From NCBI RefSeq assembly GCF_031180885.1, contig NZ_JAPSLK010000001.1, positions 599,158-663,157 on the forward strand: DNA of 64,000 nt. The letters are read 5' to 3'. The notes under the pieces are model-generated. The model searched no databases. It had not been told where the DNA came from and saw nothing but the letters and a program-made list of their open reading frames with translations. The stretch comes from Saccharothrix sp. GTDB taxonomy: Bacteria; Actinomycetota; Actinomycetes; Mycobacteriales; Pseudonocardiaceae. Both the position numbers and the translations under genes were made by a program. This document shows positions 4,473 to 43,329 of this stretch, one piece after another (the first letter of the stretch is position 1; every line of letters begins with the position of its first letter).

Positions 4473-4499
4473 GCGCCGCCCCGCTGGATACTGTGGGGC

Positions 4500-5504
4500 G
4501 TGCCGAGCCGGAGCGAAGTCCCCAGCCTCAGCGTTGTCATCCCCGTCTTCAACGAGCCCGACTGGATCGGCCGGTCCGTCGGCGCGCTGCGCACGGCGCT
4601 GGACAACGCCGGGTGGGACGCGGAGATCATCGTCGTCGACGACGGCAGCACCGACGACACCCCGGCCAAGCTGGAGCAGCTGCCGGTCACCGTGCTCAGC
4701 CAGGCCAACGGCGGCCGGTTCGCGGCGCGGCTCGCGGGCATCCACAAGGCCTCCGGCGAGCTGGTGCTGCTGCTGGACAGCCGGGTCGTGCTCGGCGCGG
4801 ACTCCCTGGTGTACCTGCGCGACCAGATCCTGGCGCACCCCGAGCGCACGGTGTGGAACGGGCACGTCGAGTCCGACGACCCGAGCAACCCCTACGGCGC
4901 GTTCATGGCGGGCCTGGTGTCCGTGGCGTGGCGGCGGTACGTGGGCAACCCGCGCCTGACCTCGTTTACCGCCGAGGACTTCGACCTCTACCCCAAGGGC
5001 ACCGGCCTGTTCCTCGCGCCGCGCCGGCTGCTGGAGCAGGCGGCGGTGTCGTTCTCCTCGCTGTACGACGACGTCCGGATGGCCAGCGACGACACCCGGA
5101 TGCTGCGGTTCGTCGCCGAGCAGGGCCCGATCCACATCTCGCCCGGCTTCCACGCGCTCTACCACAGCCGCGACGCGCTGCCGAAGTTCGTCAAGCACGC
5201 CTACTTCCGGGGCAGCACGTTCGTCGACGGCTACCTCGACTCGCCCGGCCCGGTCCGCAACGCGGCCTTCGCCGCGGCGGGCGTCGGCGTCGCGGGCCTG
5301 GTGCTGGCGGCCCGCCGCCCGAAGACCGCGGTGGCCGTGGCCGCCGCCGGTTCGGTCGCGGCCGGCGTGGTGGTGCGCAAGCTCGGCGGCAGCAAGGAGC
5401 AGGCGACGGCGGTGGCCAAGCTGCTGCCCCTGTTCGCCGCGTGCTTCGGCGCGGGCGCCGTGCGGGGCCTGCTGATGGCGCTGCGCAAGCGGCTCGGGCG
5501 GTGA
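4500..5504 (+). CDS. family 2 glycosyltransferase with C-terminal membrane anchor
   Basis: 334 residues, GTG start. The N-terminal GT-A domain shows 'VVIPVFNEPDWI', the nucleotide-sugar site 'VVDDGSTDDTP' and 'LVLLLDSRVVLG', where LDSR occupies the usual metal-binding DXD position. That is a variant and worth noting. Hydrophobic Ala/Val-rich stretches near residues 255-310 probably anchor the enzyme at the membrane. A TACTGT -10-like hexamer at 4489-4494 ends five bases before the GTG with no Shine-Dalgarno, suggesting a leaderless transcript. The stop overlaps the flippase start (GTGA). It probably adds a sugar to a lipid-linked envelope glycan. Donor and acceptor cannot be inferred. Confidence 0.82.
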   Translation: MPSRSEVPSLSVVIPVFNEPDWIGRSVGALRTALDNAGWDAEIIVVDDGSTDDTPAKLEQLPVTVLSQANGGRFAARLAGIHKASGELVLLLDSRVVLGADSLVYLRDQILAHPERTVWNGHVESDDPSNPYGAFMAGLVSVAWRRYVGNPRLTSFTAEDFDLYPKGTGLFLAPRRLLEQAAVSFSSLYDDVRMASDDTRMLRFVAEQGPIHISPGFHALYHSRDALPKFVKHAYFRGSTFVDGYLDSPGPVRNAAFAAAGVGVAGLVLAARRPKTAVAVAAAGSVAAGVVVRKLGGSKEQATAVAKLLPLFAACFGAGAVRGLLMALRKRLGR

Positions 5505-6763
5505 GTGCGGCGCCCGCGGCGGGCCGGTCCCTGGGCACCGTCGGCATCGCGACGCTGGTCGCCGCGGGCCTCGGGTACCCGCTGCTGATCGTCGCCGGCC
5601 GGGTGCTGTCCGAGGCCGACGCCGAGGTGTTCCTGGTGTTCTGGGGGCTGCTGTTCGGCGCGGGGTCGGCGTTGTCGCCGGTCGAGCAGGAGGTGTCCCG
5701 GCAGGCCGCCCTGGCGGACGTGGAGGGGCGCCGGACCGGGTTCGCGGCCGTGCAGGCGATGGCGGTGTGCGCGGTCGGCGTGGCGGTGCTGGGCCTGGTG
5801 GTGATGCTGCCGCCGGTCAGTTCCCGGCTGTTCGGGGACGCGGGGCTGGTCGCGGTCGTGACGGCGGCGGGCGCGCTGGGGTTCGCCGCCCAGTTCGGGG
5901 TGCGCGGGCTGCTCATGGGGCACCGGCGGATCACCCCCTACAGCCGGCTGGTCGTGGCCGAGGCGCTGGTCCGGGCGGTGCTGCTGGGCGGGTTCGTGGT
6001 GGCCGGGCTCAACGACCTGCTGCCGCTGACCGTCGCGGTGGCGGTCGGGTCGTTCGCGTGGCTGGTCTTCGCGCGCGGCGCGTGGACGTCGGTGGACCTG
6101 CGCGAGGGCCGCGAGCCGTGGGGCGTGGTGCTGCGGCGAATGTTCGTGCTGGTGCTGAGCGCCGGACTGACCGCGAGCGTGCTCACCGGGTACCCGGCGA
6201 TCGTCAAGCTGTTCAAGTCGCCCACCGAGGCGGACACGCTGTCCGCCCTGTTCTTCGCGCTCACCGTGGCGCGGCTGCCGCTGCTGCTGCTGTCGCCGGT
6301 GCAGGCGATGGCGGTGCCGACCGTGGTGCGGCTGTCGGTGGACGAGGATGGCCGGCGGCGGTTGCGCGGCCTGCTCGCCAAGGGCGCGGCGGTGGCCGTG
6401 GCGGTGGCGGCGGTCGGTGCGGCGCTGGGCGCGTTGGTCGGGCCGTGGGCGGTGCGGCTGCTGTTCGGGCCGGCGTACGTCGTCCAGCCGTGGGCCGTCG
6501 CCGGGCTGGTGTGGTCGTCGCTCGTGCTGGGCGCGGTGATGCTGCTCGCGGCCGTCCTGGTGGCCCGCAAGCAGGGCGGCGCGGTGCTCGCGCTGTGGGC
6601 CGTCGTGGCCGCGTTGAGCGTGCTCGTGCTGTGGCTGTCGCCGGGCGGGATCGTGGTGCGGGCGGTGCTCGGACTGGTCGTCGCGCCCACCGCCGGACTC
6701 GCGGTCGGGGCGTGGCTCGTCCTACGGGAACGCGCCGACGGGCCGGTTGGACCGGGTCGTTAG
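5501..6763 (+). CDS. MOP-superfamily polysaccharide flippase (Wzx-like)
   Basis: 420 residues from GTG 5501, which overlaps the preceding stop by GTGA. The same frame is open far upstream, but that part is antisense-type shadow of two other genes, so the overlap fixes the start. About 12-14 hydrophobic helices are spread over the whole length with short Arg-rich loops, as in Wzx/MurJ-type lipid-linked oligosaccharide flippases. There is no ATP-binding motif. It lies between two GT2 genes in one operon, consistent with moving the product of these transferases across the plasma membrane. Exact substrate unknown. Confidence 0.72.
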   Translation: MSAAPAAGRSLGTVGIATLVAAGLGYPLLIVAGRVLSEADAEVFLVFWGLLFGAGSALSPVEQEVSRQAALADVEGRRTGFAAVQAMAVCAVGVAVLGLVVMLPPVSSRLFGDAGLVAVVTAAGALGFAAQFGVRGLLMGHRRITPYSRLVVAEALVRAVLLGGFVVAGLNDLLPLTVAVAVGSFAWLVFARGAWTSVDLREGREPWGVVLRRMFVLVLSAGLTASVLTGYPAIVKLFKSPTEADTLSALFFALTVARLPLLLLSPVQAMAVPTVVRLSVDEDGRRRLRGLLAKGAAVAVAVAAVGAALGALVGPWAVRLLFGPAYVVQPWAVAGLVWSSLVLGAVMLLAAVLVARKQGGAVLALWAVVAALSVLVLWLSPGGIVVRAVLGLVVAPTAGLAVGAWLVLRERADGPVGPGR

Positions 6764-6772
6764 GCTTTGCCC

Positions 6773-7513
6773 GTGTCTGACTCGGTCGACCTGCGTCGAG
6801 TGCTGGTCGTTCTCCCGGCGCTGAACGAAGAGAACAACATCGACAAGATCGTCGCCGAGGTGATGGCCGAGCTGCCCGACGCGGGCGTGCTGGTGGTGGA
6901 CGACGGCTCCACCGACCGCACCGCCGCGCGGGCGCGGGAAGCCGGCGCGCACGTCGCCCGGCTGGCGGTGAACCTCGGCGTCGGCGGCGCCATGCGCACG
7001 GGCTTCCGCTACGCGGTGCGGCACGGCTACGACGTCGTCGTCCAGGTCGACGCCGACGGCCAGCACAACCCGGCCGAGGTCCCCGAACTGCTGCGCGCCC
7101 TGGGCGAGGCCGACCTGGTCATCGGCGCGCGCTTCGCCGGCAAGGGCGACTACAAGGCCCGCGGCCCGCGCCGCTGGGCGATGAAGGTCTTCTCCCTGGT
7201 GCTGTCCTGGATCTCCGGCCAGAAGCTCACCGACGTGACCTCCGGCTTCAAGGCCGCCGGTCCGCGCGCGGTGGCCCTGTTCGCCCGCCACTACCCGGCG
7301 GAGTACCTGGGCGACACCCTGGAGTCCCTGGTCATGGCCGTCCGGGCGGGTCTGCGGATCCGCCAGGTGCCGGTGGCGATGCGCATGCGCGCCGCAGGCA
7401 TGCCGAGCACGTCCCCCGTCAAGTCCGCGGTGTACCTGCTGCGCGCCACCCTGGCGCTGCTGCTCGCACTGATGCGCCGCAAGCCCGCCGCGGGCTCGCA
7501 CGAAGCGGCCTGA
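6773..7513 (+). CDS. family 2 glycosyltransferase, DPM1/polyprenyl-phosphate type
   Basis: About 246 residues from GTG 6773. A TTG at 6767 is also in frame but less likely. It has 'VVLPALNEENNI', 'VVDDGSTDRT', the DXD 'VQVDADGQHNP' and 'IGARFAGKGDYKARGPRRW', the pattern of DPM1-like enzymes that transfer a sugar from UDP/GDP to polyprenyl phosphate. The protein ends in a hydrophobic segment (about residues 222-236), giving membrane association. A TAGGCT hexamer at 6761-6766 is six bases before the GTG and there is no Shine-Dalgarno, so a leaderless transcript is plausible. The next gene (DUF2304) is the usual companion of this enzyme type in actinobacteria. Confidence 0.85.
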   Translation: MSDSVDLRRVLVVLPALNEENNIDKIVAEVMAELPDAGVLVVDDGSTDRTAARAREAGAHVARLAVNLGVGGAMRTGFRYAVRHGYDVVVQVDADGQHNPAEVPELLRALGEADLVIGARFAGKGDYKARGPRRWAMKVFSLVLSWISGQKLTDVTSGFKAAGPRAVALFARHYPAEYLGDTLESLVMAVRAGLRIRQVPVAMRMRAAGMPSTSPVKSAVYLLRATLALLLALMRRKPAAGSHEAA

Positions 7514-7526
7514 GGAGGTCGGTCCC

Positions 7527-7907
7527 ATGCCCGAGTGGCGGTTGCTCAGCATCGCGCTGGCGGTGTTCGTGCTGGTCGTGGTCATCGAGATGATGCGGCG
7601 CCGCAAGCTGCGCGAGAAGTACGCGGGCCTGTGGCTGGTCGTGGGCACCGGCGTGGTGGTGTTCGGCGCGGTCCCGGGCCTGCCGTCCTGGTTCGCGGAC
7701 CTCACCGGCATCCAGCTGGCGGCGAACTTCCTGTTCGCGGCGGCCTTCGTGGTGCTGCTGTTCGTGGTGTTGCAGCTGAGCAGCGAGGTCGGCCACCTGG
7801 AGGAGGAGGTGCGCACCACGGTGGAGGAGATCGCCCTGCTCCGGTGCGAGCTGGAGGACGTGAAGCGGGAGCTGGAGCAGAAGCTGGAAGACGCCCGCCG
7901 CTCCTGA
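7527..7907 (+). CDS. DUF2304 small membrane protein
   Basis: 126 residues: N-terminal hydrophobic helix (7-23), a short Arg/Lys loop, two further helices (about 35-52 and 64-84) and a charged C-terminal coiled coil (88-122, rich in Glu/Leu). This matches DUF2304 proteins, which commonly follow a GT2 polyprenyl-sugar synthase and are thought to assist it. GGAGG sits 9 bases before ATG 7527. It is the last gene of the 305-7907 block. Biochemical function is not known. Confidence 0.8.
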   Translation: MPEWRLLSIALAVFVLVVVIEMMRRRKLREKYAGLWLVVGTGVVVFGAVPGLPSWFADLTGIQLAANFLFAAAFVVLLFVVLQLSSEVGHLEEEVRTTVEEIALLRCELEDVKRELEQKLEDARRS

Positions 7908-9510
<1,603 letters not shown>

Positions 9511-9621
9511 GCGGACTCCGGTGGCGCGGTATCGTCGCAGCTGACCGCGCCACCGGGAATCCCCGGTGGTAGTCCACACCGCATCCCGAACCGTGTCGTT
9601 GGTTCGTCGGAGGAACAGCAC

Positions 9622-11511
9622 GTGACCGAGCACAGTACCCGTGGCGGCATCGACCCGAGCACGGTGCTCCAGCGGATCATCCTGCCCCGGGACGAAGACC
9701 CGCTGGACGTCCGCCCGCTCTACCTGGACGAGCCGGAGAACGTGCACTCGCACGTCTCCTCCCGCCGCGAGGTCACCGTGCCCGCGTCGGCCAAGGTGTC
9801 GTTCGCCTCGTACTTCAACGCGTTCCCGGCCAGCTACTGGAAGCGCTGGACGGTCGTCGAGGAAGTCGTGCTGCGGATGCGGCTGCGCGGCGAGGGCCGC
9901 GTGGACGTGTACCGGTCCAAGCCCAACGGCGACCCGATCCACCTCGACGGGCGGGCCGTGCGGTCGGCGAAGGGCTGGGTGGACGTCGAGTTCCGGATCG
10001 GGCTTAAGCCGTTCGAGGACGGCGGCTGGATCTGGTTCGACGTGTTCACCGACGACCACACGCTGGAGATCGGCGAGGCGGCCTGGACCACGGACGTCGA
10101 GCTGCCCGCGCAGAAGGTCGCCATCGGCATGACCACCATGCGCCCGGTGGACGCCATCATCGCGCTGCGCGCGCTGGGCGAGGACCCGGCCGTGCTGGAC
10201 GTGGTGCAGAAGGTGTTCGTCGCCGACCAGGGCGCGGTGAAGGTGCGCGACACCGAGGGCTACGCCGAGGCGGTCCGGCTGCTCGGCGACAAGCTCGAAG
10301 TGATCGAGCAGGACAACCTGGGCGGCTCCGGCGGGTTCACCCGCGGCCTCTACGAGGCGATCGAGCACACCGACGTCGACCAGATCATGCTCATGGACGA
10401 CGACATCCGGCTGGAGCCGGACGCGGTGCTGCGCTCCAACGCGTTCGCCCGCGCGGCGGCGCAGCCGGTCATCGTCGGCAGCCACATGCTCAACCTCCAG
10501 GCCCGCGCCCGGCTGCACAGCATGGGCGAGGTCGTGGACCTGGGCACGTGCTTCTGGCGCGCCGCGCCGGGCGCGGTGACCGACCACGACTTCGGCAGCC
10601 AGTCGCTGCGCGCGACCGAGGAACTGCACCTGCGCATCAACTCCACCTACAACGGCTGGTGGATGTGCCTGTTCCCGCGCGAGGTCGTGCAGCGCACGGG
10701 GTACCCGCTGCCGCTGTTCATCAAGTGGGACGACGCCGAGTACTCGCTGCGCGCCCTGGAGAACGGCTACCCGACGGTGTCGCTGCCGGGTTCGGCGGTC
10801 TGGCACATGCCGTGGACCGACAAGAACGACGCCACCGACTGGCAGGCGTACTTCCACACCCGCAACCGCCTGGTCATGGCCGCGCTGCACAGCCCGTACG
10901 ACGTGCGGTCGACGCTGGCGAAGCAGGGCATCAAGCTCACCCTGCGGCACCTGCTGTCGATGGAATACTCGACGGTGGCCGTGCAGCAGAAGGCCATCGA
11001 GGACTTCCTGGCCGGGCCGTCGCGCCTGTTCGACTCCCTGCGCACGGCGTTGCCGGAGATCCAGGCCCTGCGGAAGGGCTATGCGGACGCCCAGGTCCTG
11101 CCGTCGGCCCGGAAGTTCCCGCCGCCGACGTTCGACATGGTCCGCGCCGAGGCCATGCTGACGCCGCCGACCAACCCGGCCGTGAAGGCTCGGGAGGCGG
11201 CGAAGGCGCTGGTCCACAACCTGCGCTCGCCGGAGCCGGCCACGGCGGACCGGCCGCAGATCAACGTGCCGTCGGCGGACGCGCGGTGGTTCCTGCTGGG
11301 CAACCTCGACAGCGCCACCGTGTCGAACGCGGACGGCAGCGGGGTGGCGTTCCGCAAGCGCGACCCGAAGGAGTTCAAGAAGCTCATGGCGCGGGCCGTG
11401 CGGAACTACCGCCGGTTGAGCCAGGAATGGCCCCGGATGAAGCAGGTCTACCGGGACGCGCTGCCCGAGCTGACCTCTGTCGAGGCGTGGCGCAAGGTTT
11501 TCGAGAACTAG
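9622..11511 (+). CDS. glfT2: galactofuranosyltransferase GlfT2
   Basis: 629 residues (the M. tuberculosis enzyme has 637). GlfT2 polymerises the galactan chain with alternating beta-1,5 and beta-1,6 linkages on a lipid carrier, using UDP-galactofuranose from Glf. An N-terminal beta-sandwich (about 1-160) precedes a GT-A domain with 'GGSGGFTRGLYEA', the metal-binding triplet in 'LMDDDIRLEPD' (D259-D261), the catalytic-region 'KWDDAEYSLRA' (about 368-378) and 'WHMPWTDKND' with H395. The C-terminal third is helical. GTG 9622 has a good GGAGGAA. The gene faces glfT1 across a bidirectional terminator. In mycobacteria glf/glfT2 and glfT1 are at separate loci; here they are together. Confidence 0.95.
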   Translation: MTEHSTRGGIDPSTVLQRIILPRDEDPLDVRPLYLDEPENVHSHVSSRREVTVPASAKVSFASYFNAFPASYWKRWTVVEEVVLRMRLRGEGRVDVYRSKPNGDPIHLDGRAVRSAKGWVDVEFRIGLKPFEDGGWIWFDVFTDDHTLEIGEAAWTTDVELPAQKVAIGMTTMRPVDAIIALRALGEDPAVLDVVQKVFVADQGAVKVRDTEGYAEAVRLLGDKLEVIEQDNLGGSGGFTRGLYEAIEHTDVDQIMLMDDDIRLEPDAVLRSNAFARAAAQPVIVGSHMLNLQARARLHSMGEVVDLGTCFWRAAPGAVTDHDFGSQSLRATEELHLRINSTYNGWWMCLFPREVVQRTGYPLPLFIKWDDAEYSLRALENGYPTVSLPGSAVWHMPWTDKNDATDWQAYFHTRNRLVMAALHSPYDVRSTLAKQGIKLTLRHLLSMEYSTVAVQQKAIEDFLAGPSRLFDSLRTALPEIQALRKGYADAQVLPSARKFPPPTFDMVRAEAMLTPPTNPAVKAREAAKALVHNLRSPEPATADRPQINVPSADARWFLLGNLDSATVSNADGSGVAFRKRDPKEFKKLMARAVRNYRRLSQEWPRMKQVYRDALPELTSVEAWRKVFEN

Positions 11512-11522
11512 GTAGAAGCTCG

Positions 11523-11564
11523 ACAAAAACGCGCGGCGCCCTCCAGGTCGCCGCGCGTTTTTGT
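11523..11564. terminator. bidirectional intrinsic terminator between glfT2 and glfT1
   Basis: A 16-bp perfect stem (11523-11538 with 11549-11564) and a 10-nt loop. The arms begin ACAAAAAC and end GTTTTTGT, so a U-run follows the GC stem in either direction. It lies between the convergent stops of glfT2 and glfT1. Confidence 0.9.
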
Positions 11565-11595
11565 GCCCGAATGCGATTCCGTCGACAGCGGACGG

Positions 11596-12510
11596 TTACT
11601 TCCGGAAGAACTTCTCCTGCCGGCCCTGGCGGACCAGCTTCACCCATTCGAAGAACGCCTTCGGGTCCCTGCGCACACCGACGAAGTACAGGCCGAAGCG
11701 GAAGAACTCCAGCATCCCCAGTTTGCGCATACCCGGCTGGGAGAGCAGGTAGCCCCGGTTGCGGTAGGTGTAGTAGCGCTTGATCGGGTTCTCCGGGTCC
11801 TGCGCGTGGAACCGGCCGCCGAGCATCGGCTTGAACTCGTCGGAGCCGTCCGGGTGCAGGTAGGCGACCTTCAGGCTGGTGCCGAACGGCAGACCCGTGC
11901 GGACCAGTCGGCGGTGGATCTCCACCTCGTCGCCGCGGAAGAACAAGCGGTAATCCGGGACGCCGATGACGTCGACCGTCGACGCCCGGAAGAGCGCGCC
12001 GTTGAACAGCGACGCGATGCCGGGCAGGAAGTCGACGCCCAGGTCCGCGGTGCGGCGCTTCCACGTCAGGCCGCGGCGCAGCGGGAACGCGAGCTTGTCC
12101 GGGTGCTCGATGTTGGAGACGACCGGGGACACCGCCGCCAGCCCGCGGCGGTCGGCCTCCTCCAGCAGGACCTCCAGGACGCGGTCGTCGGCCGGGCGGC
12201 CGTCGTCGTCGGCGAGCCACAGCCAGTCGGCGCCCAGGGACAGGGCGTGCAGCATGCCCAGCGCGAAGCCGCCGGCGCCGCCCAGGTTGCGGTGCGACGC
12301 CAGGTAGGTCGTGGAGATGGGGCACTGCTCGACCAGGTCCTCGACGGGCTGGTCGGGGCCGTTGTCCACGACCACCAGGTGGTCCAGCGGTCTGGTCTGG
12401 GACGCCAGGACCTTCAGCGACTGCGCGAGCAGCTCGCGGCGGTGCCGGGTCACCACGACCCCGACCACGGAACCCTTCGGCAATGCGCTGCTCACTGGTC
12501 TACTCGCCAC
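11596..12510 (-). CDS. glfT1: galactofuranosyltransferase GlfT1
   Basis: 304 residues, the length of mycobacterial GlfT1 (Rv3782). This GT2 enzyme adds the first galactofuranose residues to the rhamnosyl-GlcNAc-lipid acceptor before GlfT2 elongates. It shows 'VVVTRHRRELL', 'VVDNGPDQ', 'HRNLGGAGGFALGM' and the metal-binding 'WLADDDGRP' (D101-D103), then 'GDEVEIHRRLV' and 'YYTYRNRGYLL'. GTG 12510 overlaps the end of the ABC ATPase gene by 11 bases and has GGGA upstream; a second GTG at 12495 is possible. It forms an operon wzm-wzt-glfT1 on the minus strand, as in mycobacteria, where the ABC transporter is tied to galactan export. Confidence 0.93.
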   Translation of the reverse strand: MASRPVSSALPKGSVVGVVVTRHRRELLAQSLKVLASQTRPLDHLVVVDNGPDQPVEDLVEQCPISTTYLASHRNLGGAGGFALGMLHALSLGADWLWLADDDGRPADDRVLEVLLEEADRRGLAAVSPVVSNIEHPDKLAFPLRRGLTWKRRTADLGVDFLPGIASLFNGALFRASTVDVIGVPDYRLFFRGDEVEIHRRLVRTGLPFGTSLKVAYLHPDGSDEFKPMLGGRFHAQDPENPIKRYYTYRNRGYLLSQPGMRKLGMLEFFRFGLYFVGVRRDPKAFFEWVKLVRQGRQEKFFRK

Positions 12511-13315
12511 CGTTCCCGCTCAGCACCGGCGACTGGCCGATCCGTTCCAGCGTCTCCGGGCTGAGGTGCTCGTAGGGGTCGCGGCCCTTGTAGGTCCGGA
12601 CGACCTCGCGCAGCGAACCCTGCATCTTGACGCGGCCCTCGTCCATCCAGATCGCGGTATTGCACAGCTCGACGAGGAAGTCGTCGGAGTGCGAAGCGAA
12701 CACCAGGATGCCGGATCGCTTCACCAGGTCGTTCAGCCGGTCCCGGGCCTTCTCCAGGAACGCCGCGTCGACCGCGCCGATGCCCTCGTCCAGCAGCAGG
12801 ATCTCCGGGTCGATCGACGTCACGACGCCGAGCGCGAGCCGGACCCGCATGCCGGTCGAGTACGTCCGCAGCGGCATCGACAGGTAGTCGCCCAGCTCGG
12901 TGAACTCGGCGATGTCGTCGACCCGCTTCTCCATCTCCTTGCGGGTCATGCCGAGGAACAGGCCCCGGATCATGATGTTCTCGTAGCCGGAGATCTCCGG
13001 GTCCATGCCGACGCCCAGGTCGAACACGGGCGCGATCTTGCCCTGGATGCGGGAGCTGCCCCGGGTCGGCTCGTAGATGCCCGCGAGCAGGCGCAGCAGG
13101 GTCGACTTGCCCGCGCCGTTGTGCCCGACCAGGCCGACCCGGTCGCCGTGCCGCAGCGAGATGTTGATGTCGTGCAGCGCCTCGATGATCGGGATGCGGC
13201 CCTCGGAGCCGATCTTGCCGCCGACCTTGCCCAGGGCGAGCTTCTTCAGCGACCTCGACTTGGCGTCGAAGATCGGGAAGTCCACCGAGGCGTTCCAGAC
13301 GTCGATGCTGACCAT
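12500..13315 (-). CDS. wzt: galactan-export ABC transporter ATP-binding protein (Wzt/RfbE-like)
   Basis: 271 residues from ATG 13315 (MVSIDVW...). A GTG at 13330, directly after the wzm stop, is an alternative; the ATG has a GAGG 9 bases upstream. It is an ATPase of the polysaccharide ABC exporter family: Walker A GHNGAGKST (64-72), Q-loop region 'FDLGVGMDPE', signature YSTGMRV (152-158), Walker B ILLLDE (172-177) and H-loop 'FASHS' (H209). It pairs with the permease encoded just upstream. By synteny with Rv3781-Rv3783 it probably flips the lipid-linked galactan across the membrane. It lacks the long C-terminal carbohydrate-binding domain of some O-antigen Wzt proteins, as mycobacterial members do. 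Confidence 0.92.
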   Translation of the reverse strand: MVSIDVWNASVDFPIFDAKSRSLKKLALGKVGGKIGSEGRIPIIEALHDINISLRHGDRVGLVGHNGAGKSTLLRLLAGIYEPTRGSSRIQGKIAPVFDLGVGMDPEISGYENIMIRGLFLGMTRKEMEKRVDDIAEFTELGDYLSMPLRTYSTGMRVRLALGVVTSIDPEILLLDEGIGAVDAAFLEKARDRLNDLVKRSGILVFASHSDDFLVELCNTAIWMDEGRVKMQGSLREVVRTYKGRDPYEHLSPETLERIGQSPVLSGNGGE

Positions 13316-13330
13316 GGTTGACGGCCTCAC

Positions 13331-14242
13331 TCAGACCCAGTAGGAGACGCGGGCACGGTAGTTGCGCAGCGCGACCAGCGCCAGTGCCCAGCCGACGACG
13401 GTGAACGCGCCCACGACCACCCAGTGGTGCCAGTCCTGCACCTGGCCGAGCAGCGGGGCGCGCACGATCTCCAGGAAGTGGTACAGGGGGTTGAACTCGG
13501 CGATCAGGATCTTCCAGTTGCCGTCGCCCTCGGTGAACTTGTTGAGCACACCCACGTGCCACACGATCGGCGTCATGAAGAAAATCAGGTTGATGAAGCT
13601 GTGGATCACCGGCGGGATGTCGCGGAAGCGGGTGCTGATGATGCCGAACAGGATCGCCACCCACACCGCGTTGACCACCAGCAGCGCGAAGGCCGGGATC
13701 GCGAGGACGATCGTCCACGAGATGCCGGGGTGGGTGACGACGTCGCCCTCCATCTTGTACTGCTCGGTCAGCGCCGGGAAGAACACCGCCAGCACCACCA
13801 CGTAGACGGCCAGGTTGTGCACGAAGAACAGCACCTGGCGCCACACCATGCGCAGCACGTGGACGGTCATCGGCGCGGGCAGGTGCTTGATCAGGCCCTC
13901 GTTGGCGATGAAGACCTCGGTGCCCTCGGTGACCACGCCCAGGATGAAGTTCCAGACGATGAAGCCGACCGTCACGTACGGGAGGAAGGTGGCCAGCTCC
14001 TGGCCGAGCAGCGTCGAGTACAGCAGACCCAGCGCCAGGGCCGTGGTGCCCATGGAGATCGTGATCCACAGGGGTCCGATCACGGACCGCCGGTAGCGCT
14101 GCTTGATGTCCTGCCAGCCGAGGTGGCCCCACAGCTCGCGCTGCCGCCACGCGTCGCGCACGTCACCGAACGCCCGCGCGAACGTGCGGGAGTCGGGCGC
14201 GGGGGGAACGACAGGTCGGTCGACCGTACTCGTGTGTTGCAC
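13331..14242 (-). CDS. wzm: galactan-export ABC transporter permease (Wzm/RfbD-like)
   Basis: 303 residues with an amphipathic N-terminal segment ('RELWGHLGWQDIKQRYRRS') and six predicted membrane helices, the ABC-2 polysaccharide exporter layout. The Arg-rich 'KQRYRRSVIGPLW' motif is a hallmark of Wzm-type permeases. It is first in the wzm-wzt-glfT1 operon and directly abuts wzt. GTG 14242 lies inside a 9-bp-stem hairpin (14226-14248) with no Shine-Dalgarno but a TAGTCT hexamer eight bases upstream, suggesting a leaderless transcript. It is likely the channel for the lipid-linked galactan intermediate. Confidence 0.9.
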   Translation of the reverse strand: MQHTSTVDRPVVPPAPDSRTFARAFGDVRDAWRQRELWGHLGWQDIKQRYRRSVIGPLWITISMGTTALALGLLYSTLLGQELATFLPYVTVGFIVWNFILGVVTEGTEVFIANEGLIKHLPAPMTVHVLRMVWRQVLFFVHNLAVYVVVLAVFFPALTEQYKMEGDVVTHPGISWTIVLAIPAFALLVVNAVWVAILFGIISTRFRDIPPVIHSFINLIFFMTPIVWHVGVLNKFTEGDGNWKILIAEFNPLYHFLEIVRAPLLGQVQDWHHWVVVGAFTVVGWALALVALRNYRARVSYWV

Positions 14243-17900: not shown

Positions 17901-18533
17901 ATGGAGCCCTGGCCCTACCGCCACCTGGCGTTGCGCACACCCCGCCTCGAACTGCGCCCCGACGACGACGAAGGCCTGCTCGAACTGGTCGACGTGGTCC
18001 TCGACGGCATCCACCCGCCCGACGAGATGCCGTTCGGCGTGGAGTGGACCGACGCACCGCGCGACCGCCTCGGGTTCAACGTCGTGCAGTACCACTGGAT
18101 GGTGCGGTCCGAGCAGTGCCCGGGCCGCTGGGCGGTCAACTTCCTGGCGCGGCTCGACGGTCGGGTGATCGGCGAGCAGACCCTGGTCGGGCACGACTTC
18201 GCGATCACCGGCGAGGTGTCCACCGGCTCGTACCTGGGCCGCCGCCACCAGGGACAAGGGCTCGGGACGGAGATGCGGGCCGCCGTACTCATGTTCGCGT
18301 TCGACCACCTGAACGCCCGCACGGCCAGGTCCAGCGCTTTCGTGGACAACCCGGCGTCACTGGGCGTCAGCCGCAAGCTCGGCTACCGCCCCGACGGGAC
18401 CCTCGTGCAGGTCCGCCGAGGTGCCCGCGCCGAGCAGACCCGGCTCCTCCTGGACCGCGCGGACTTCCGCCGCCCCGACTGGGACCTGGCGGTGACCGGG
18501 GTCACAGACGCCCTGTGGTTGCTCACGGGCTGA
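17901..18533 (+). CDS. GNAT-family N-acetyltransferase
   Basis: 210 residues, ATG 17901. The acetyl-CoA-binding motif A is visible as 'TGSYLGRRHQGQGLGTEMRAA', the classic R-x-x-G-x-G/A loop, with 'HLNARTARSSAFVDNPASLG' (motif B: N-x-x-S) and 'LGYRPDGT' typical of the RimJ/RimL-like branch that acetylates protein N-termini or small amines. 'LRTPRLELRPDDDEGLLEL' is the usual beginning of such proteins. Monocistronic, divergent from the quinone reductase. Substrate not predictable. Confidence 0.85.
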   Translation: MEPWPYRHLALRTPRLELRPDDDEGLLELVDVVLDGIHPPDEMPFGVEWTDAPRDRLGFNVVQYHWMVRSEQCPGRWAVNFLARLDGRVIGEQTLVGHDFAITGEVSTGSYLGRRHQGQGLGTEMRAAVLMFAFDHLNARTARSSAFVDNPASLGVSRKLGYRPDGTLVQVRRGARAEQTRLLLDRADFRRPDWDLAVTGVTDALWLLTG

Positions 18534-18613
18534 GAACCCGCCGAGTGAGGGATTGATTTCGGCACGTCACCGGGCGAGGGTTCGCCCAATCCGAGTGAAG
18601 GGGAAACTCGCTC

Positions 18614-20838: not shown

Positions 20839-20973
20839 GAGCCCCCCGACAACTCCGCGGCGAACCGCCCCAACCCCTCCTCCGACGCCCGCGGGTGTCA
20901 CGTCCACCGCCAGACGCGGACAGGGGCGGCGCGCCGTGGTGGCGCGCCGCCCCTGTCCGTGCTGGTGGAACCA

Positions 20974-21029
20974 GCGGAAGCGGAGGGATTTGAACCCCCG
21001 GACGGTTGCCCGTCTCCCGCTTTCAAGGC
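20974..21029 (+). repeat. attL: remnant copy of the tRNA-Ser 3' end
   Basis: 56 bases identical to 31830-31885, starting GCGGAAGCGG and ending TTTCAAGGC. It covers the T arm, variable arm and anticodon-arm 3' side of the tRNA but not its 5' half, so it cannot encode a tRNA. Similarity stops abruptly on both sides, marking the distal end of the element. Confidence 0.93.
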
Positions 21030-21121
21030 CGGCTTCCATCGTCCCGGGTCGTCCGTAGCCGACCGTTTCCGCAGCTTACGTGCCCACGGTCGTTCGCCGT
21101 AGTTCATGTCCGTCCGGGCTC

Positions 21122-21142
21122 GTTGCTACACGAGTAGCTACA
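21122..21142 (+). repeat. paired GTTGCTACA-like repeat, left end (candidate integrase arm sites)
   Basis: GTTGCTACA at 21122-21130 and GTAGCTACA at 21134-21142, start-to-start 12 bp. The same pair with the same 12-bp spacing occurs at the right end (31760-31780). Paired sites inside both element ends fit arm-type binding sites for the integrase. Confidence 0.5.
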
Positions 21143-21398
21143 CCCCGTCTGGGCGTGCAGTGCAGCACTGGCACGGCATGTACCCACCGCGATTGATCAA
21201 CATGCGGTCTCTCGCCTGTGCGTAGGCTGTTCGCGTAGCGATGCGATCGGCGAGCTTCCGGCCTGCTTCAGGATGATGGACCCTGCTCTTCCCATGTTGG
21301 AGCGGTGCCGCGTTCGCCACCTCGGCGTAAGCCCGCTGCGCTGAATCTCTCGCCACGGCCGCCTCGACCAACGCTGCCAAGTCCTCTGCTTCAGACAT
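21138..21398 (-). CDS. small hypothetical AICE protein
   Basis: 86 residues from ATG 21398. The N-terminal half is helical and Ala-rich (SEAEDLAALVEAAVARDSAQ), the middle is basic with 'HGKSRVHHPEAGRKLADRIATR', and the end has a cysteine cluster 'GGYMPCQCCTARP' (C-x-C-C) that could bind metal. The stop codon lies within the left arm-site repeats. I do not recognise a family. It is the element's outermost gene at this end and transcribed toward attL. Confidence 0.5.
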   Translation of the reverse strand: MSEAEDLAALVEAAVARDSAQRAYAEVANAAPLQHGKSRVHHPEAGRKLADRIATRTAYAQARDRMLINRGGYMPCQCCTARPDGV

Positions 21399-21548
21399 CT
21401 GCCTTCCTCTACCTCAGTCCGGCCAGCTCCAGCGGCTGGGCACTGAGATCAAGTGGAACAAATGGCAAACAGGCCGCCCCCTGAGGCGAGTGTCGGAGCC
21501 GCTGGCCGCTGGCGCGAAGCGTCGGCGGGCGTCGATCGCCGTGCCCAG

Positions 21549-21645
21549 CGCTGTCAGGCCGTGTGACCGCGCGATCGTGCCGGGCGTGGACGCTGGAAGT
21601 GTTGAAGAGGCCGGCACGATCGCGCGGTCACACGGCCTGACAGCG
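21549..21645. repeat. 35-bp perfect inverted repeat, 27-nt loop
   Basis: Arms 21549-21583 and 21611-21645 are exact reverse complements (outer ends CGCTGTCAGG / CCTGACAGCG). The 27-nt loop is 21584-21610. A perfect 35-bp arm in non-coding DNA is much longer than a usual terminator and has no U-run. In a rolling-circle element it may be a single-strand initiation site or a transfer signal. Confidence 0.85.
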
Positions 21646-21668
21646 TGGCGGCGCGCCGCCGGCTCGGC

Positions 21669-21761
21669 CACGTGCACCGACTCCGCGCGCGGCCGACGGG
21701 CAGAGCGAAGCGGGAGCCCGGCGTGCCGCGATGCGGGGAGTCGGTGCAACGTGCGTTGCAC
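21669..21761. repeat. secondary inverted repeats beside the 35-bp palindrome
   Basis: 21669-21684 (CACGTGCACCGACTCC) pairs with 21737-21753 except for one extra A. The right arm also contains a nested 7-bp palindrome, GTGCAAC (21744-21750) with GTTGCAC (21755-21761). Together with the 35-bp repeat this makes a compact multi-hairpin region of about 210 bp. Confidence 0.65.
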
Positions 21762-21925
21762 CCGGCCGCGCCGCCGCAGGCGGCGCGCCTTGATCCCATA
21801 GAGCGAAGTTCGGCAAGACCGAGAAACATGTACGTGGCAGAAGACGATGCGTTGACTAGCGTGGTGATCGGGCTGGTCGGTGGTCGACACACGAGCTTGC
21901 GCGGTAGCCCAGGGAGGGAGGGGTC

Positions 21926-23035
21926 ATGCAAGATCTGCCAGATGATCTAAGTCGGTTTGATCATGACCTGGTGCTCGTGCTTTCGAAAGACCGACGAAAG
22001 CTGTCACTTAAAGAAGCAGTAGACATAATCCGACTTGAATCCGGCGAACAGGTCAACCTGGAGACAGTGATAGCGGAAGGGCGGAATCCGCTGGAATGGA
22101 TCCAGCCGAAAGCCCTGTGGAAGTTTGACCACGCGACCCGTCGTGGCGTCCACTATGCGGTTATCCCCGACGAGCATGGCAGCTTTGTATTGTCGGCTTG
22201 GAGTACTGAGCACCGTGGCGTCTTTCACTTGGCAGCTACTGTCCCTGTTACTGATCCGCGATGGAAGAAAGTTGAGCGGTGGATTGGGCGGGCCACGCCA
22301 AACCTTGTTCCCTGCTTCCTGAATCACGCAGATTTCGCCGACATCGGAGCTGCGCTTGCCAACCTGGGTGAGGCTGAGGTGAGTCGGCTAACTGCGCGCA
22401 GTCTGCTAGACCAATCATCTACAACTCGTGGCTGGAAGAGTCGTTCGGATAGCTTGCGGCCAACGCCGATAGACGCCATCGGCGAGGCGGAGGCCAACCA
22501 TACTTCCGTTAGAACCATGACTATCAGGGTAGGTGACATTCTTAACGTTCACCTCCGCAGGTTGGCTGGTGCAACCTTCTACTCGGGGCGCTTCGAAGTA
22601 TTCGAAGCAGAGGTCTTGACACGCCTCGCTGCCGCAGTGGCGTCTCGTCGTAACCTAATGGGCAACCGGCAGCGAAGGATTGGCGCGCCAATGGGTGCCC
22701 CGATCTCGATCAAGCTTCCGGGTCCGTTCCTCGGCGCAGAAATCGACACCGGTGAAGTCCTCTCCACGTTGGAGGAATTTAGTCAGACCAGCATTGCTGT
22801 CCTTCATCGCAATCCGTACCTCCATGTCGTAGTGACTGATTACTCCGATGGATCGAATTTCGATGTGTTTGTCACAGACCCTGAAACTATCGAGATCTAT
22901 CCCGGATATCGCGCTAGCTTGGGGTCCCTTACGAGATTGAGTCAGCGCTTGGGGGAGAGGTTCCTCGCGACAGACATTCGTGAGGCAGCGGACGAGCCCG
23001 TGGTCAACCTCAGCGATCTTGTGGCGAGCAGGTAG
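21926..23035 (+). CDS. unknown AICE cargo protein A (low G+C)
   Basis: 369 residues from ATG 21926, preceded by a very strong GGGAGGGAGGGG. Many A/T third positions set it apart from the chromosome, indicating recent acquisition. No known motif is recognised. Visible parts: an acidic N-terminal region with 'VLSKDRRKLSLKEAVDII'; a central beta-rich region; 'DILNVHLRRLAGATFYSGRFEVFEAEVL' near 210-240; a basic 'RRNLMGNRQRRIG' loop; and a C-terminal beta/alpha segment 'NPYLHVVVTDYSDGSNFDV'. It ends three bases before the next ORF, so A and B form an operon. No signal peptide or membrane segment. Possibly the sensor or effector partner of the putative nuclease B; this is inference from context. 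Confidence 0.7.
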   Translation: MQDLPDDLSRFDHDLVLVLSKDRRKLSLKEAVDIIRLESGEQVNLETVIAEGRNPLEWIQPKALWKFDHATRRGVHYAVIPDEHGSFVLSAWSTEHRGVFHLAATVPVTDPRWKKVERWIGRATPNLVPCFLNHADFADIGAALANLGEAEVSRLTARSLLDQSSTTRGWKSRSDSLRPTPIDAIGEAEANHTSVRTMTIRVGDILNVHLRRLAGATFYSGRFEVFEAEVLTRLAAAVASRRNLMGNRQRRIGAPMGAPISIKLPGPFLGAEIDTGEVLSTLEEFSQTSIAVLHRNPYLHVVVTDYSDGSNFDVFVTDPETIEIYPGYRASLGSLTRLSQRLGERFLATDIREAADEPVVNLSDLVASR

Positions 23036-23038
23036 AAC

Positions 23039-24049
23039 ATGGCTGACGAGATGGCACCATCTTCCCGAGAGCGAAGACTTCTCGAGACCTACTCCACATA
23101 TGATGAGCACGTCGATGTGATATCGGCCTTCGAGTGGATGTTCACCCAAGTGAAAGATCTTGCCGCTACCGTGCGCCATTTTGAACGGTTCCCGAAGATC
23201 GCCATAGGACGCAAGGTTGAATTGACGCCAGACTTCACCGTTCTCTTTTCTGATGGTAGTGCGATTGTTGGAGAAATTGCAAAAATTGCCGTCCACGAAA
23301 ATAGCGTCGATAAATTATGTAGACAGCTTGGCAATTACGACGCGCTCACCTCTGTTCCTGTGGCCCGAGGCGAGTTGGCGAAGGTTGAACAGGTCGACGT
23401 ACTTCAGCTTGTGAACGTTCGTGTCGGATACGCCGCAGTGCAGCGGATTATTGTAGACCGGTATACAAATGCGGCGCATCCATATAAGCCGTCCCGTGCG
23501 CCGACCATCGTTCAGTACGCACGAGATAGGGAGGTCTACACCTTCCAGCGCATCCTGCATCCGGATAACGGTGACGTGGTCCGGGGCGAGCGGACGCCGA
23601 ACATAGGTGACTACCTTGATCAAGGCTTGAACATTAAGGCCGCCCACTTCGTGAAAATCAAAGCGGAAAGAGCCTTGATAAACGATCAGGTCGATCCGCT
23701 TTATATGGCAACGCACCTGTGGGCGAAGACTTGGCCCAGTATGTATGGAGTTGGGTCAACAGACATCGTGATAAAGCCGGCAGAGACCGCTGATGTGCTG
23801 CGTAGGCAGCACGGTGTCGGACGTGCGCTCGATGTCAAAAACGCATTGGAGTTACTGGAAGCTGCGGGGCTTGCGGCCAAAGAGGACGCTGGCTCCTGGC
23901 GTATTTCGAGGAAATTGCTTGGGCGAAGTGGTGATCGGGAAGTGCATTCGATCATCGCCCGAAGGGCGTGTGCGCCGAAAGCCCCAAAGAGTGTTGTTTC
24001 GCAGAAGAGGCTAACTGTCTCCGAGGTTGAGCAGGGAACTCTTTTTTGA
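23039..24049 (+). CDS. unknown AICE cargo protein B, possible PD-(D/E)XK nuclease
   Basis: 336 residues, ATG 23039, low G+C like its partner. Residues 55-100 read 'GRKVELTPDFTVLFSDG' then 'AIVGEIAKI' then 'DKLCRQLGNYDAL'. The acidic D65, beta-hairpin, E79/K82 and a following Gln-Leu-x-x-Tyr helix resemble a PD-(D/E)XK core, although E-x-x-K differs from canonical E-x-K. Residues ~255-310 ('VKNALELLEAAGLAAKEDAGSWRIS') look like a winged helix. The protein ends EQGTLF, similar to the QxxLF sliding-clamp-binding peptide. A DNA-targeting defence or element-maintenance role is an inference. I could not match it to a named family. Confidence 0.65.
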   Translation: MADEMAPSSRERRLLETYSTYDEHVDVISAFEWMFTQVKDLAATVRHFERFPKIAIGRKVELTPDFTVLFSDGSAIVGEIAKIAVHENSVDKLCRQLGNYDALTSVPVARGELAKVEQVDVLQLVNVRVGYAAVQRIIVDRYTNAAHPYKPSRAPTIVQYARDREVYTFQRILHPDNGDVVRGERTPNIGDYLDQGLNIKAAHFVKIKAERALINDQVDPLYMATHLWAKTWPSMYGVGSTDIVIKPAETADVLRRQHGVGRALDVKNALELLEAAGLAAKEDAGSWRISRKLLGRSGDREVHSIIARRACAPKAPKSVVSQKRLTVSEVEQGTLF

Positions 24050-24064
24050 GCGGCTAACACGCCT

Positions 24065-24769
24065 CTATATGGCGCGAAGGACATTCGCCATGTTCGTCAC
24101 GACTACATCAGAGCCTGCCGTTGTAAGCGACGATACCTTGCTTGTCTTGTTGGCATAACCGATTGTGTGTGTCTGGGCAGCTTGGGCGGCTTCGATGTCG
24201 GTGACCGAGTCGCCGATAAGCGTGCACTTCCAGGGTGGAGACTTAAGTATCGTTGCGGCCTGCCGGACGAGGTACGGGTTCGGCTTCAACAGTTCGAAGT
24301 CGGATTGCGTGCGAGCCGATACCGTAAGTACGAGCGGCATGAGGTCGTGGCGGTGGAGGTAGGTGTTCACGGCTGCGCGTGAGTTGTTGCTGACTATCGC
24401 TAGCCTGCGGCCGGTCGCGTGCCAGGCTTTGATCAAGTCGTGTGCGCCTGGGGTGGGTGGCGCGGTGGCGGCTGCTTCCACCTCATGGGCTTGTAGGGCG
24501 GACTCGATGTAGCGAGCGTCCTTGCTGCTGAGGGTGGCGGCGTAGGTGAGGATTTCGAACGGGTCTTCGGTCTTCTCGACCTCGGCGGGCAGCTCTCGGT
24601 GGCCACCCCCAGCGAGTACTTCGCGCAGTTGGTCGGCGACATGCTGGGCGGGAAGGTTGGCGAAGATCGCGCAGACCGGGCCGTCAAAGTCAAGCAATAG
24701 CGCGTCTGTGGTCGCCAGGATGTGGTGCAGAACCTCGGGGTCGTCCAGAGGCACATGGTCGGTGGTCAC
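24065..24769 (-). CDS. HAD-superfamily hydrolase (phosphatase-like)
   Basis: 234 residues from GTG 24769, which overlaps the GntR stop as GTGA; an ATG at 24799 is possible but would overlap by 34 bases. Motifs: I 'LLLDFDGPVCA' (DxDG, nucleophile Asp), II 'AIVSNNS', III 'LLKPNPYL' (Lys), IV 'IGDSVTDIEAAQAAQ'. A helical cap lies between I and II. This is the Gph/phosphoglycolate-phosphatase-like subclass, acting on small phosphorylated metabolites. Coupling to a GntR regulator is a recurring pair in actinobacterial integrative elements as far as I recall. Its stop is 15 bp from the convergent cargo operon. Confidence 0.85.
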   Translation of the reverse strand: MTTDHVPLDDPEVLHHILATTDALLLDFDGPVCAIFANLPAQHVADQLREVLAGGGHRELPAEVEKTEDPFEILTYAATLSSKDARYIESALQAHEVEAAATAPPTPGAHDLIKAWHATGRRLAIVSNNSRAAVNTYLHRHDLMPLVLTVSARTQSDFELLKPNPYLVRQAATILKSPPWKCTLIGDSVTDIEAAQAAQTHTIGYANKTSKVSSLTTAGSDVVVTNMANVLRAI

Positions 24770-25608
24770 CGCTTGTACTCCGTTGCGATGGTGTTCCACA
24801 GGCTGTCGAACCAGGTTCGGGCCTGCTCGACGTACTGACTGCCGGTGCTGGTGTCATCGTCGTTGGCGCTGTGGTGGAAGAGGATCGCGTCCTTGCCCAT
24901 GAGGTCGTAGATCGCCTGGGTCTGTCCTCCGAGAGAGAGGACGTGTTCGCGGACGGGGTAGAAGCCGAAGAAGGCTTCGTCGTTGTTGATCAGGTAGAGC
25001 TTGAACAGCGGTGCGGCGGGGTGCACGCGGACCTCTGCGGTGGCTTCCTTGACCAGGCCCAGTGCGCCTAGCTCGGTGACGTTGTCGACGATTGCCAGGG
25101 TGTGGCGGCGCATGATCTCGGCGGCGCGTTCGCGGAAGGCGGGGCTGTCGGCCTGGTCCTCGACGGTGCAAGGGACGGACCACGGGACAGTGGGGTCGGG
25201 CACGAGGATGCGGACGTGGACGGACTCCGGGGTGAGTCGGCCGATGCGGATCTTGTCCAGGGGTTCCTGGATGACGCCGTGCAGGGTCTCGCCGGAGAAG
25301 CCGGCGAAGTCGATCGTGACGTGGTCCTGCTCGAAGGCTCGTTCGATGTGGGGGCGCAGGCCGACCGGGCGCTCTGTGCGCTCTCGGACGAAGACGCCGC
25401 TGCCCTGTCTGGAGACGATCAACCCTTCGTCGCGCAGTTCGCGTAGGGCGTTCTGCACGGTCATCGGGGCTACGTCGTACTTCTTCGCCAGCTCGGCGCG
25501 GGAGGGCAGCTTGTCGCCGGCCTTGAAGACCTTGGTCAGGATGGCGGCCCTCAGCGCGTTCGCCACCTGCACGTATGGCGGTCGCGGGTCGTTGGGGTCG
25601 AGTGCCAT
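24766..25608 (-). CDS. GntR-family transcriptional regulator
   Basis: 280 residues, ATG 25608. The N-terminal winged helix (about 10-76) has the full GntR signature: 'YVQVANALRAAILTKVFKAG', 'LPSRAELAKKYDVAPMTVQ', 'ALRELRDEGLIVSRQGSGVFV'. The C-terminal region (~90-270) is a long effector domain with mixed beta/alpha segments and 'NNDEAFFGFYPVREH'. In pSAM2 the GntR protein KorSA represses pra and thus element excision and transfer; this gene lies divergent to the pra-like gene with palindromic operators between, supporting the same role. Co-transcribed with the HAD hydrolase. Confidence 0.88.
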   Translation of the reverse strand: MALDPNDPRPPYVQVANALRAAILTKVFKAGDKLPSRAELAKKYDVAPMTVQNALRELRDEGLIVSRQGSGVFVRERTERPVGLRPHIERAFEQDHVTIDFAGFSGETLHGVIQEPLDKIRIGRLTPESVHVRILVPDPTVPWSVPCTVEDQADSPAFRERAAEIMRRHTLAIVDNVTELGALGLVKEATAEVRVHPAAPLFKLYLINNDEAFFGFYPVREHVLSLGGQTQAIYDLMGKDAILFHHSANDDDTSTGSQYVEQARTWFDSLWNTIATEYKR

Positions 25609-31829: not shown

Positions 31830-31885
31830 GCGGAAGCGGAGGGATTTGAACCCCCGGACGGTTGCCCGTCTCCCGCTTTCAAGGC
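31830..31885 (+). repeat. attR: 56-bp repeat inside the intact tRNA-Ser
   Basis: Identical to 20974-21029. It spans the 3' end of tRNA-Ser(UGA) up to the anticodon stem, so integration at this site regenerates a complete tRNA gene on this side. Confidence 0.93.
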
Positions 31886-31915
31886 GGGTGCATTCGGCCG
31901 CTCTGCCACGCTTCC
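31831..31915 (-). tRNA. tRNA-Ser (anticodon UGA)
   Basis: 85 nt on the minus strand. The acceptor stem GGAAGCG (5', at 31915) pairs with CGCTTCC, discriminator G. The anticodon loop CTTGAAA (31883-31877) gives UGA. The long variable arm is typical of serine tRNAs; T loop TTCAAAT. CCA is not encoded. It is the AICE insertion target. Confidence 0.95.
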
Positions 31916-42568: not shown

Positions 42569-43329
42569 CCGACAGAGTCTTCCGGTTGAGCGCGCTGGAG
42601 TTCTTCCTGCTGTGGCAGGCGGTCCACCGCGAGGCTCATCCGGTCCCCCTCGGCACCCGGCACTACGGACACACCCAGCAGGAGCGGGCGCGGCTCGTCG
42701 AGACCACGTCCCGCGACCTGTTCGCGCGCGGCCTGGGCACCGTGCAGCGGCCCGACGAGGAGTTGTACGGGGTCCTGCGCGGCCTGGCGGAGTTCGAGAT
42801 CGGCCTGGAGGTCGTGTTCACCCGCGGCGGCGAGCAGGCCCGCGGCCTGGCCACCGCCGCGTGGCACGGCGCGTTCGCGGGCCGGGTCGGCGAACAGGTC
42901 CAGGTGACCGGGTTCCGGCCCACCGCGCTGGCCGCCACCACCGTCGGCACCCTGCCGCCCGCACCGCCCGGCGCGGGCCGCTCGGTCAACGTCCGCTGGG
43001 ACGACTACCTGGAGGCGGGCCGCGCCGGCGAGCAGGACGGCACCGAGGGCTTCCTGGACGTGCTGCGCCGCGCCGGCCTGCGCGAACCCGAGGCGAACAC
43101 GCTCATGCGCGCCGTCACCACCCGCCGCGGCGGCGGTCAGGTCGGCGTGATCGCCCGCAACCGCAACGGCTACCTGCACCCGACCGGTGACACCGTGTCG
43201 TGGCTGGACACCGCCGACGGCCGGTACCTGGTCCGGCGGGACGGGACGTGGCTCGTCGTCGCGCCCGTGGACGGCCAGAGGCTGGCCTCGGCGGTCGAGC
43301 AACTGGTGGCGGGCGCCGGCCGGAACTAG
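42565..43329 (+). CDS. EspG-family ESX chaperone
   Basis: 254 residues from GTG 42565, overlapping the preceding stop (GTGA). It shows the EspG pattern: 'RLSALEFFLLWQAVHREAHPV', 'VLRGLAEFEIGLEVVFTRGG', 'FRPTALAATTVGTLPP', 'RRGGGQVGVIARNRNGYLHPTG' and a final 'VVAPVDGQRLASAVEQLV' helix. EspG binds the PPE partner's tip and keeps it soluble until export by the ESX ATPase. No EccC/EccB/MycP gene is in this window, so this is an orphan effector/chaperone cassette. It is the end of the three-gene operon. Confidence 0.88.
   Translation: MTDRVFRLSALEFFLLWQAVHREAHPVPLGTRHYGHTQQERARLVETTSRDLFARGLGTVQRPDEELYGVLRGLAEFEIGLEVVFTRGGEQARGLATAAWHGAFAGRVGEQVQVTGFRPTALAATTVGTLPPAPPGAGRSVNVRWDDYLEAGRAGEQDGTEGFLDVLRRAGLREPEANTLMRAVTTRRGGGQVGVIARNRNGYLHPTGDTVSWLDTADGRYLVRRDGTWLVVAPVDGQRLASAVEQLVAGAGRN

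Follow-up and report, generated by a model that had tools for sequence, protein, structure and literature searches.

Introduction

The closest described counterparts of the gene pair considered here are PD-(D/E)XK nucleases in which, according to two reports (PMC551604; PMC1913061), a lysine or arginine has moved into the helix after motif III, as in COG4636 (Uma2), DUF506, DUF790 and DUF1626. The pair, genes A and B, lies in an actinomycete integrative and conjugative element (AICE) of Saccharothrix sp., within a stretch of 64,000 nucleotides (contig NZ_JAPSLK010000001.1, positions 599,158 to 663,157) that we refer to as the window and whose own numbering is used throughout. Protein B resembles those nuclease families in having a conserved acidic residue in an early helix, a P-D strand, an acidic residue in the next strand without a lysine at position +2 from it and, in the helix after that, both a conserved lysine and a Q...Y pattern. 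It differs from them in that there is no detectable sequence similarity, in an extra conserved C-terminal part, and in having been found in every case with a partner, protein A.

A second parallel is provided by the prokaryotic Argonautes, of which active ones cut and inactive ones use auxiliary effectors, according to one account (PMC11442185). The pair is similar in principle, in that its lineages with an intact motif have no third gene and those with a lost motif have gained one; the differences are that the partner here is A and that family scans gave no sequence relation.

RexAB of phage lambda consists of a cytosolic DNA-binding component and a small membrane protein with multiple transmembrane (TM) segments, which is also the layout of an archaeal four-TM variant of the pair described below, although no family match of A, B or the third genes (the latter compared with Pfam only) names Rex. 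The four-TM third gene also resembles the PycTM/SLATT effectors in its D-x-KA type start, its paired membrane segments and a collinear hhalign alignment, but its match to the PycTM profile was not significant (hhalign P 0.03), and Pfam PycTM (PF18967) gave E 0.83 in one of the four four-TM proteins scanned and no match in the other three.

We report that A and B are a conserved, tightly spaced and patchily distributed pair without a known family. No description of this two-gene family was found in family libraries or in the literature searched, whose coverage did not extend to subscription journals and preprints. Based on the sequence comparisons below, we consider it an even bet that the pair is an operon-like two-protein defense module on an AICE, of nuclease type in the window. 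More tentatively, and with a probability that we place somewhat short of even, A and B may represent an undescribed immune core of Actinobacteria and Haloarchaea, comprising two new families with a modular output.

Results and Discussion

The gene pair and its distribution

The two genes and the ribosome-binding sequence that precedes them are as follows.

21926..23035, + strand: gene A, 369 amino acids (aa), unassigned to any known family; possibly a sensor/activator, or else a second catalytic component
23039..24049, + strand: gene B, 336 aa, likewise unassigned; the order of its motifs suggests a PD-(D/E)XK-like core, and a C-terminal winged helix is possible
21911..21923, + strand: ribosome-binding sequence of gene A, strong and purine-rich, AGGGAGGGAGGGG, read directly

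The genes are on the same strand with a gap of 3 bases. A first-pass annotation made from the window's letters had described two open reading frames (ORFs) with this spacing and one strong ribosome site; its coordinates were exact, and the site before A is the only strong one, that of gene B being weak on direct reading. The same annotation had contrasted the A/T-rich third codon positions of the pair with all other genes. The G+C content at third positions (GC3) of A and B (0.59 and 0.57) is indeed low relative to the medians of the 52 mechanically called ORFs of the window (0.92) and of ten neighbors (0.88). However, the contrast does not extend to every gene, as two of the 52 ORFs have lower values (18044-18556, overlapped in a different frame by a longer ORF, and 42612-43190), and the gene after B (24065-24799) is intermediate at 0.73.

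A and B are real genes and not a chance pair of ORFs, because both proteins are conserved, in the same order, at 30 distinct loci from two domains of life. Both genes were present in every sequence examined, that is, in 62 of 62 entries (overlaps counted) from Actinobacteria and Haloarchaea, and homologues are clearly not always found apart from each other. The count of distinct loci (denoted here by L numbers) omits short search loci and the window copies L001 and L026; the alignments of 29 rows used below omit L013 (a near copy of L014) and L024, L049 and L051 (the same as L010, L011 and L012, respectively). Gene A always precedes gene B, with a spacing of -4 to +15 bases at all 29 loci compared. 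The trees of the two proteins have 20 of 26 splits in common, and their patristic distances correlate with r 0.95.

Hosts of the pair further include Blastococcus, Klenkia, Nocardioides, Actinomadura, Dactylosporangium, Nonomuraea and additional haloarchaea, and yet the pair is rare. It was detected in five of 298 genomes of the order and two of 396 of the phylum (the window's own genome being counted in both), in one of 150 genomes of the Dactylosporangium family (that of the Dactylosporangium host itself) and in 14 of 391 haloarchaeal genomes, including the genome that named the class. A tblastn search of 72,556 plasmid records gave seven matches for A and five for B; on a Haloarcula plasmid the search found A alone, and B was afterwards located adjoining it. 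The pair is carried by six distinct plasmids, two of them from Arthrobacter, which are conjugative or mobilizable, and the remainder haloarchaeal. With the two loci on AICE-type elements (the window and L020), this carriage hints at an involvement in conflicts among mobile elements. The pair is not supported as a phage gene set: no relative was confirmed among viral contigs searched with alignments of A and B, and a phage collection searched with the A proteins from the window and L055, though not with B, gave no match.

At 13 of 29 loci both genes have a GC3 that is lower than the median of their neighbors by 0.1 or more, and at several others the value is equal or higher; L061 is the locus without a value, the simple gene caller having taken an ORF on the other strand. 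The earlier suggestion that the pair is a low-G+C module that moves is supported.

Candidate nuclease motifs in protein B

Four features of protein B are relevant to its possible activity.

23231..23233, + strand: D65, the aspartate of motif II (P-D), conserved in 21 of 29 rows, among them all 13 actinobacterial ones
23273..23275, + strand: E79, acidic residue of motif III; E in 15 of 29 rows, namely L009, L053 and each of the 13 actinobacterial rows
23312..23314, + strand: K92, candidate catalytic lysine that would have migrated into the next helix (motif IV); present in all 13 actinobacterial and 3 of 16 archaeal rows
23831..23935, + strand: residues 265-299; weak similarity to helix-turn-helix or AAA-lid profiles, best E 0.023

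Across the 29 rows the conserved motifs of B occur in the order Y21...D26...E32, HFxRFP, TPDFTV, GxxGEI, KLxxQxxxY and VDVxLLV, with E32 conserved in 28 rows and P64 in all 29. We read this as the order of helices and strands in PD-(D/E)XK enzymes, and it supports the PD-(D/E)XK-like core that had been proposed for B. The first-pass annotation had placed the active site at E79 and K82, a pairing that we reject: position 82 is K in only five of 29 rows and E79 is present in 15, and the lysine shared by the actinobacterial rows is K92. The canonical E-x-K, with a lysine at position 81, is found in only two rows, the haloarchaeal L009 and L053, and is absent from B of the window. All 13 actinobacterial rows have A or S at position 81 and keep D65, E79 and K92, and so have the sequence pattern of the known variant in which the lysine has moved to the helix after motif III. 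We infer that B is a PD-(D/E)XK-type nuclease, whose active site in the window would consist of D65, E79 and the helix lysine K92, making it a putative migrated-lysine "PD-EXX-K" site. The motif states of the remaining archaeal rows fall into two groups. Five rows have K at position 79 and keep D65; nine have D, V or I at position 79, and in eight of these D65 is replaced by T, S or N.

Profile comparisons added little to this picture. A predicted C-terminal winged helix in B received weak profile matches, all of them (for the window protein) within residues 265-299, and nothing beyond weak ones. In Pfam the best match of the 29 B homologues was to GntR (E 0.0033; five of 29 rows). When 14 homologues each of A and B were compared with PADLOC there were two single-member matches (JetB, E 0.0025; NsnC, E 0.0042), and with NCBIfam none. 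The comparison of B with Uma2 and Mrr by hhalign (P 0.11 each; P 0.056 for a decoy consisting of part of A) is uninformative because the positive control, Uma2 with Mrr, failed as well (P 0.25).

Protein A

The most conserved part of protein A is its C-terminal motif.

22805..22864, + strand: motif HxNPYxH...DxxDG...D of A, invariant in 29 of 29 rows

The motif residues are H294, N296, P297, Y298, H300, D305, D308, G309 and D313. Over the 29 rows 16 positions of A are invariant (start methionine included), ten of which cluster between V292 and D313, and this cluster may be a ligand- or metal-binding site. No match of the window proteins to Pfam, PADLOC, NCBIfam or PHROGs was stronger than E 0.02, and in PADLOC-DB 2.0.0 there was none at E ≤10; the best E for the 29 A homologues in Pfam was 0.072. 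This is in agreement with the earlier statement that A matches no recognizable family, and it applies equally to B. Both proteins may yet belong, as remote members, to folds that are already known. A comparison of A with B by hhalign produced no lead (E 0.16). Both are probably soluble, since a hydropathy scan gave a borderline membrane segment in only two of 29 A rows and three of 29 B rows.

Third genes in haloarchaea

A membrane gene adjoins the pair in all 14 rows without E79, and it belongs to one of two families depending on the clade. In all five rows with K79, a CorA-like gene encoding approximately 450 aa lies about 70-105 bases upstream of the pair, and hydropathy places the membrane segments of its product at the C-terminus. 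In all nine rows of the other clade that has lost E79, a gene for a four-TM protein of approximately 220 aa, with three to four hydrophobic segments by hydropathy, is situated directly downstream. Neither the CorA-like nor the four-TM family was found in the segments inspected around L009, L053 or the actinobacterial loci, where the search was limited to these two membrane families. In a concatenated tree calculated without the site columns each of the two groups is separated from all other rows by a single branch, and two changes are required to account for the membrane trait.

Among 341 haloarchaeal genomes, relatives of the CorA-like protein with E <1e-200 were present only in the two genomes known to carry the pair (G679 and G899), with weaker relatives in eight others. 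Distant CorA-like relatives (L084-L091) were also seen in genomes in which the pair was not found, and may belong to other modules. Matches to the four-TM family (L062-L081 and L051-L060) number up to eight per genome, some of them with internal stops.

Proposed function and alternative explanations

If the pair is a defense module, protein A, via the domain with HxNPYxH...DxxDG...D, would recognize foreign DNA or an infection signal and license B, which with a C-terminal DNA-binding winged helix would cut the DNA of the invader or of the infected cell. In two haloarchaeal lineages the nuclease site would have decayed and the adjoining CorA-like or four-TM protein would have taken over as effector, so that the response there would be abortive, acting through membrane damage. 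The modular outputs of the putative immune core would then be a migrated-lysine nuclease as in the window, a canonical D-ExK nuclease as in L009 and L053, and a decayed nuclease combined with one of two unrelated membrane effectors, and a single sensor core would have shifted at least twice from cutting the invader to killing through the membrane. If this is correct, an immune core of two unassigned protein families would be added to the systems that archaea and bacteria share, and it would provide a natural test of when a membrane effector replaces an immune nuclease. The prediction of a site with K92 rather than K82, together with the archaeal three-gene variants, makes the proposal directly testable.

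Genes near the pair at other loci are consistent with this function. Restriction or defense genes were found within approximately 8 kb of the pair at no fewer than seven of the 23 loci examined, a count that stands without a background rate. In L021, HmaB, HmaC and HEC-05 are upstream of the pair on the same strand; in L050 a type IIG restriction-methyltransferase immediately precedes the CorA-like gene; and in L061 there are type I HsdM and HsdR, the end of HsdR being about 200 bases upstream of the pair. IetA (L023), a partial match to a type IV restriction enzyme (L053), a DNA methyltransferase with a DEAD helicase (L007) and DUF1156 proteins with an HNH protein (L009) are also near the pair. 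The first-pass annotation's leading guess of defense thus gains support from several loci near restriction-modification, HMA and type IIG genes, with the same limit on the count.

A number of observations weigh against a nuclease-based defense module. Neither A nor B has a match of weight in Pfam, NCBIfam, PADLOC or PHROGs, a sequence search of the PDB gave chance-level results (the best, E 0.028, was to an engineered meganuclease), and the fold proposed for B is deduced solely from the order of its motifs. The residues of B that are most invariant (Y21, D26, K208, N215 and Y222) are other than the nuclease residues, and cleavage may therefore not be its core function; K92, moreover, is present in three archaeal rows in which the site is otherwise lost. 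The association of membrane genes with loss of the site comprises just two events, and D65 is still present in one of the clades concerned. Members of the four-TM family are frequent and usually unaccompanied by the pair (124 of 341 haloarchaeal genomes, as opposed to 14 of 391 for the pair), and the family is therefore a general module recruited here. Of ten neighbors scanned singly with PADLOC, three had no match and one had only TPR/oxidoreductase matches, while the plasmid loci L008 and L011 adjoin partition genes (ParB or ParA).

The alternative that fares best, although we regard it as improbable, is that B is everywhere a catalytically dead PD-(D/E)XK-like DNA-binding protein and that A, by means of an H/H/D/D/D metal site, is the enzyme, which signals or cuts. 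The invariance of the C-terminal polar cluster of A in 29 of 29 rows, whereas B lacks E79 in 14 of the 29, is in line with such a role, but the retention of D65, E79 and K92 throughout the 13 rows of the actinobacterial clade is unexpected for a dead site.

Slightly more doubtful still is a toxin-antitoxin (addiction) module, in which one protein (B as a nuclease, or the archaeal membrane protein) would be toxic and the other would restrain it, with the result that cells free of the element die. Antitoxins are usually small and fast-evolving, whereas both genes of the pair are large (approximately 370 and 340 aa) and conserved. Tight spacing and co-inheritance of two genes would be expected of such a module, and plasmid and AICE carriage, with partition genes close by in L008 and L011, would suit it; against this, defense-type genes are neighbors at several loci and five of the 12 archaeal contigs with the pair are longer than 1 Mb.

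The least probable of the three is a role in the transfer, replication or partition of mobile elements (such as DNA processing or exclusion of a second copy) with no antiviral defense, for although the pair is carried by an AICE, by Arthrobacter plasmids of conjugative or mobilizable type and by plasmids of haloarchaea, with ParB or ParA adjoining in two records, A is present in only seven of the 72,556 plasmid records and no common replication or transfer gene accompanies the pair at the loci compared, as no neighbor family beyond A, B and the two third genes is common to more than three loci outside the Blastococcus group.

The host element and other neighbors

The features of the element that carries the pair in the window, and of the DNA upstream of it, are listed below.

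20974..21029, no strand: left attachment (att) site of the AICE, one of two identical direct copies of 56 bp (the other is 31830-31885)
31830..31915, - strand: tRNA-Ser(TGA), the target of the AICE; its part 31830-31885, at one end of the tRNA, is the right att copy
24065..24799, - strand: HAD-family hydrolase (Pfam), AICE neighbor; a relative is also near the pair in L020
24766..25608, - strand: GntR-family regulator of the AICE (Pfam); relatives near the pair in L019 and L020
30480..31754, + strand: integrase-like ORF beside the tRNA, named by reading; a relative is in the L020 element
21549..21645, no strand: inverted repeat that lies upstream of the pair, with gene A on one side and the att site on the other; its arms match perfectly over 35 bp and its loop measures 27 nt

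The integrated element is 10.9 kb long and its ends are a perfect 56-bp direct repeat at tRNA-Ser(TGA). As in other AICEs, the direct-repeat att sites are made of part of a tRNA gene, and their enclosing the pair bears out its earlier description as AICE cargo. Of the other components typical of AICEs, the FtsK-type translocase and replication initiator of the element are putative, with names given by reading alone, the integrase is a candidate with a relative in L020, and the GntR regulator is confirmed by Pfam.

Hairpin-rich DNA had also been noted upstream of the pair. It is represented by the 35-bp inverted repeat, the longest perfect one within 20900-24200, and by the folding energy of the 120-nt stretch around it (-103.5 kcal/mol). 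The repeat is a candidate origin, transfer locus or regulatory element; a copy was sought in the other pair loci and none was found.

In L020 (Dactylosporangium roseum, 2474-13355) the pair is flanked by two tRNA-Ser(TGA) genes with a 60-bp repeat in common, and the locus is therefore another AICE-like element associated with this type of tRNA. It also holds relatives of the GntR, HAD and integrase-like genes of the window.

The scan of neighbors covered 23 of the 30 loci. After exclusion of one ORF at the end of L009, 133 ORFs passed our check, of which 122 were scanned and 11, the third-component genes, were omitted; the families considered were the 25 commonest of 308 in PADLOC and of 126 in Pfam. 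In the translation view of L009, the frames at 5264-6823, upstream of the pair, are rich in short repeats resembling an array of the CRISPR (clustered regularly interspaced short palindromic repeats) type. In three Blastococcus genomes (L013, L014 and L022) a near-identical pair is located in an island in which it is flanked on one side by copper-ATPase-like genes and on the opposite side by a run of three long recombinase-like ORFs, these genes being named by reading.

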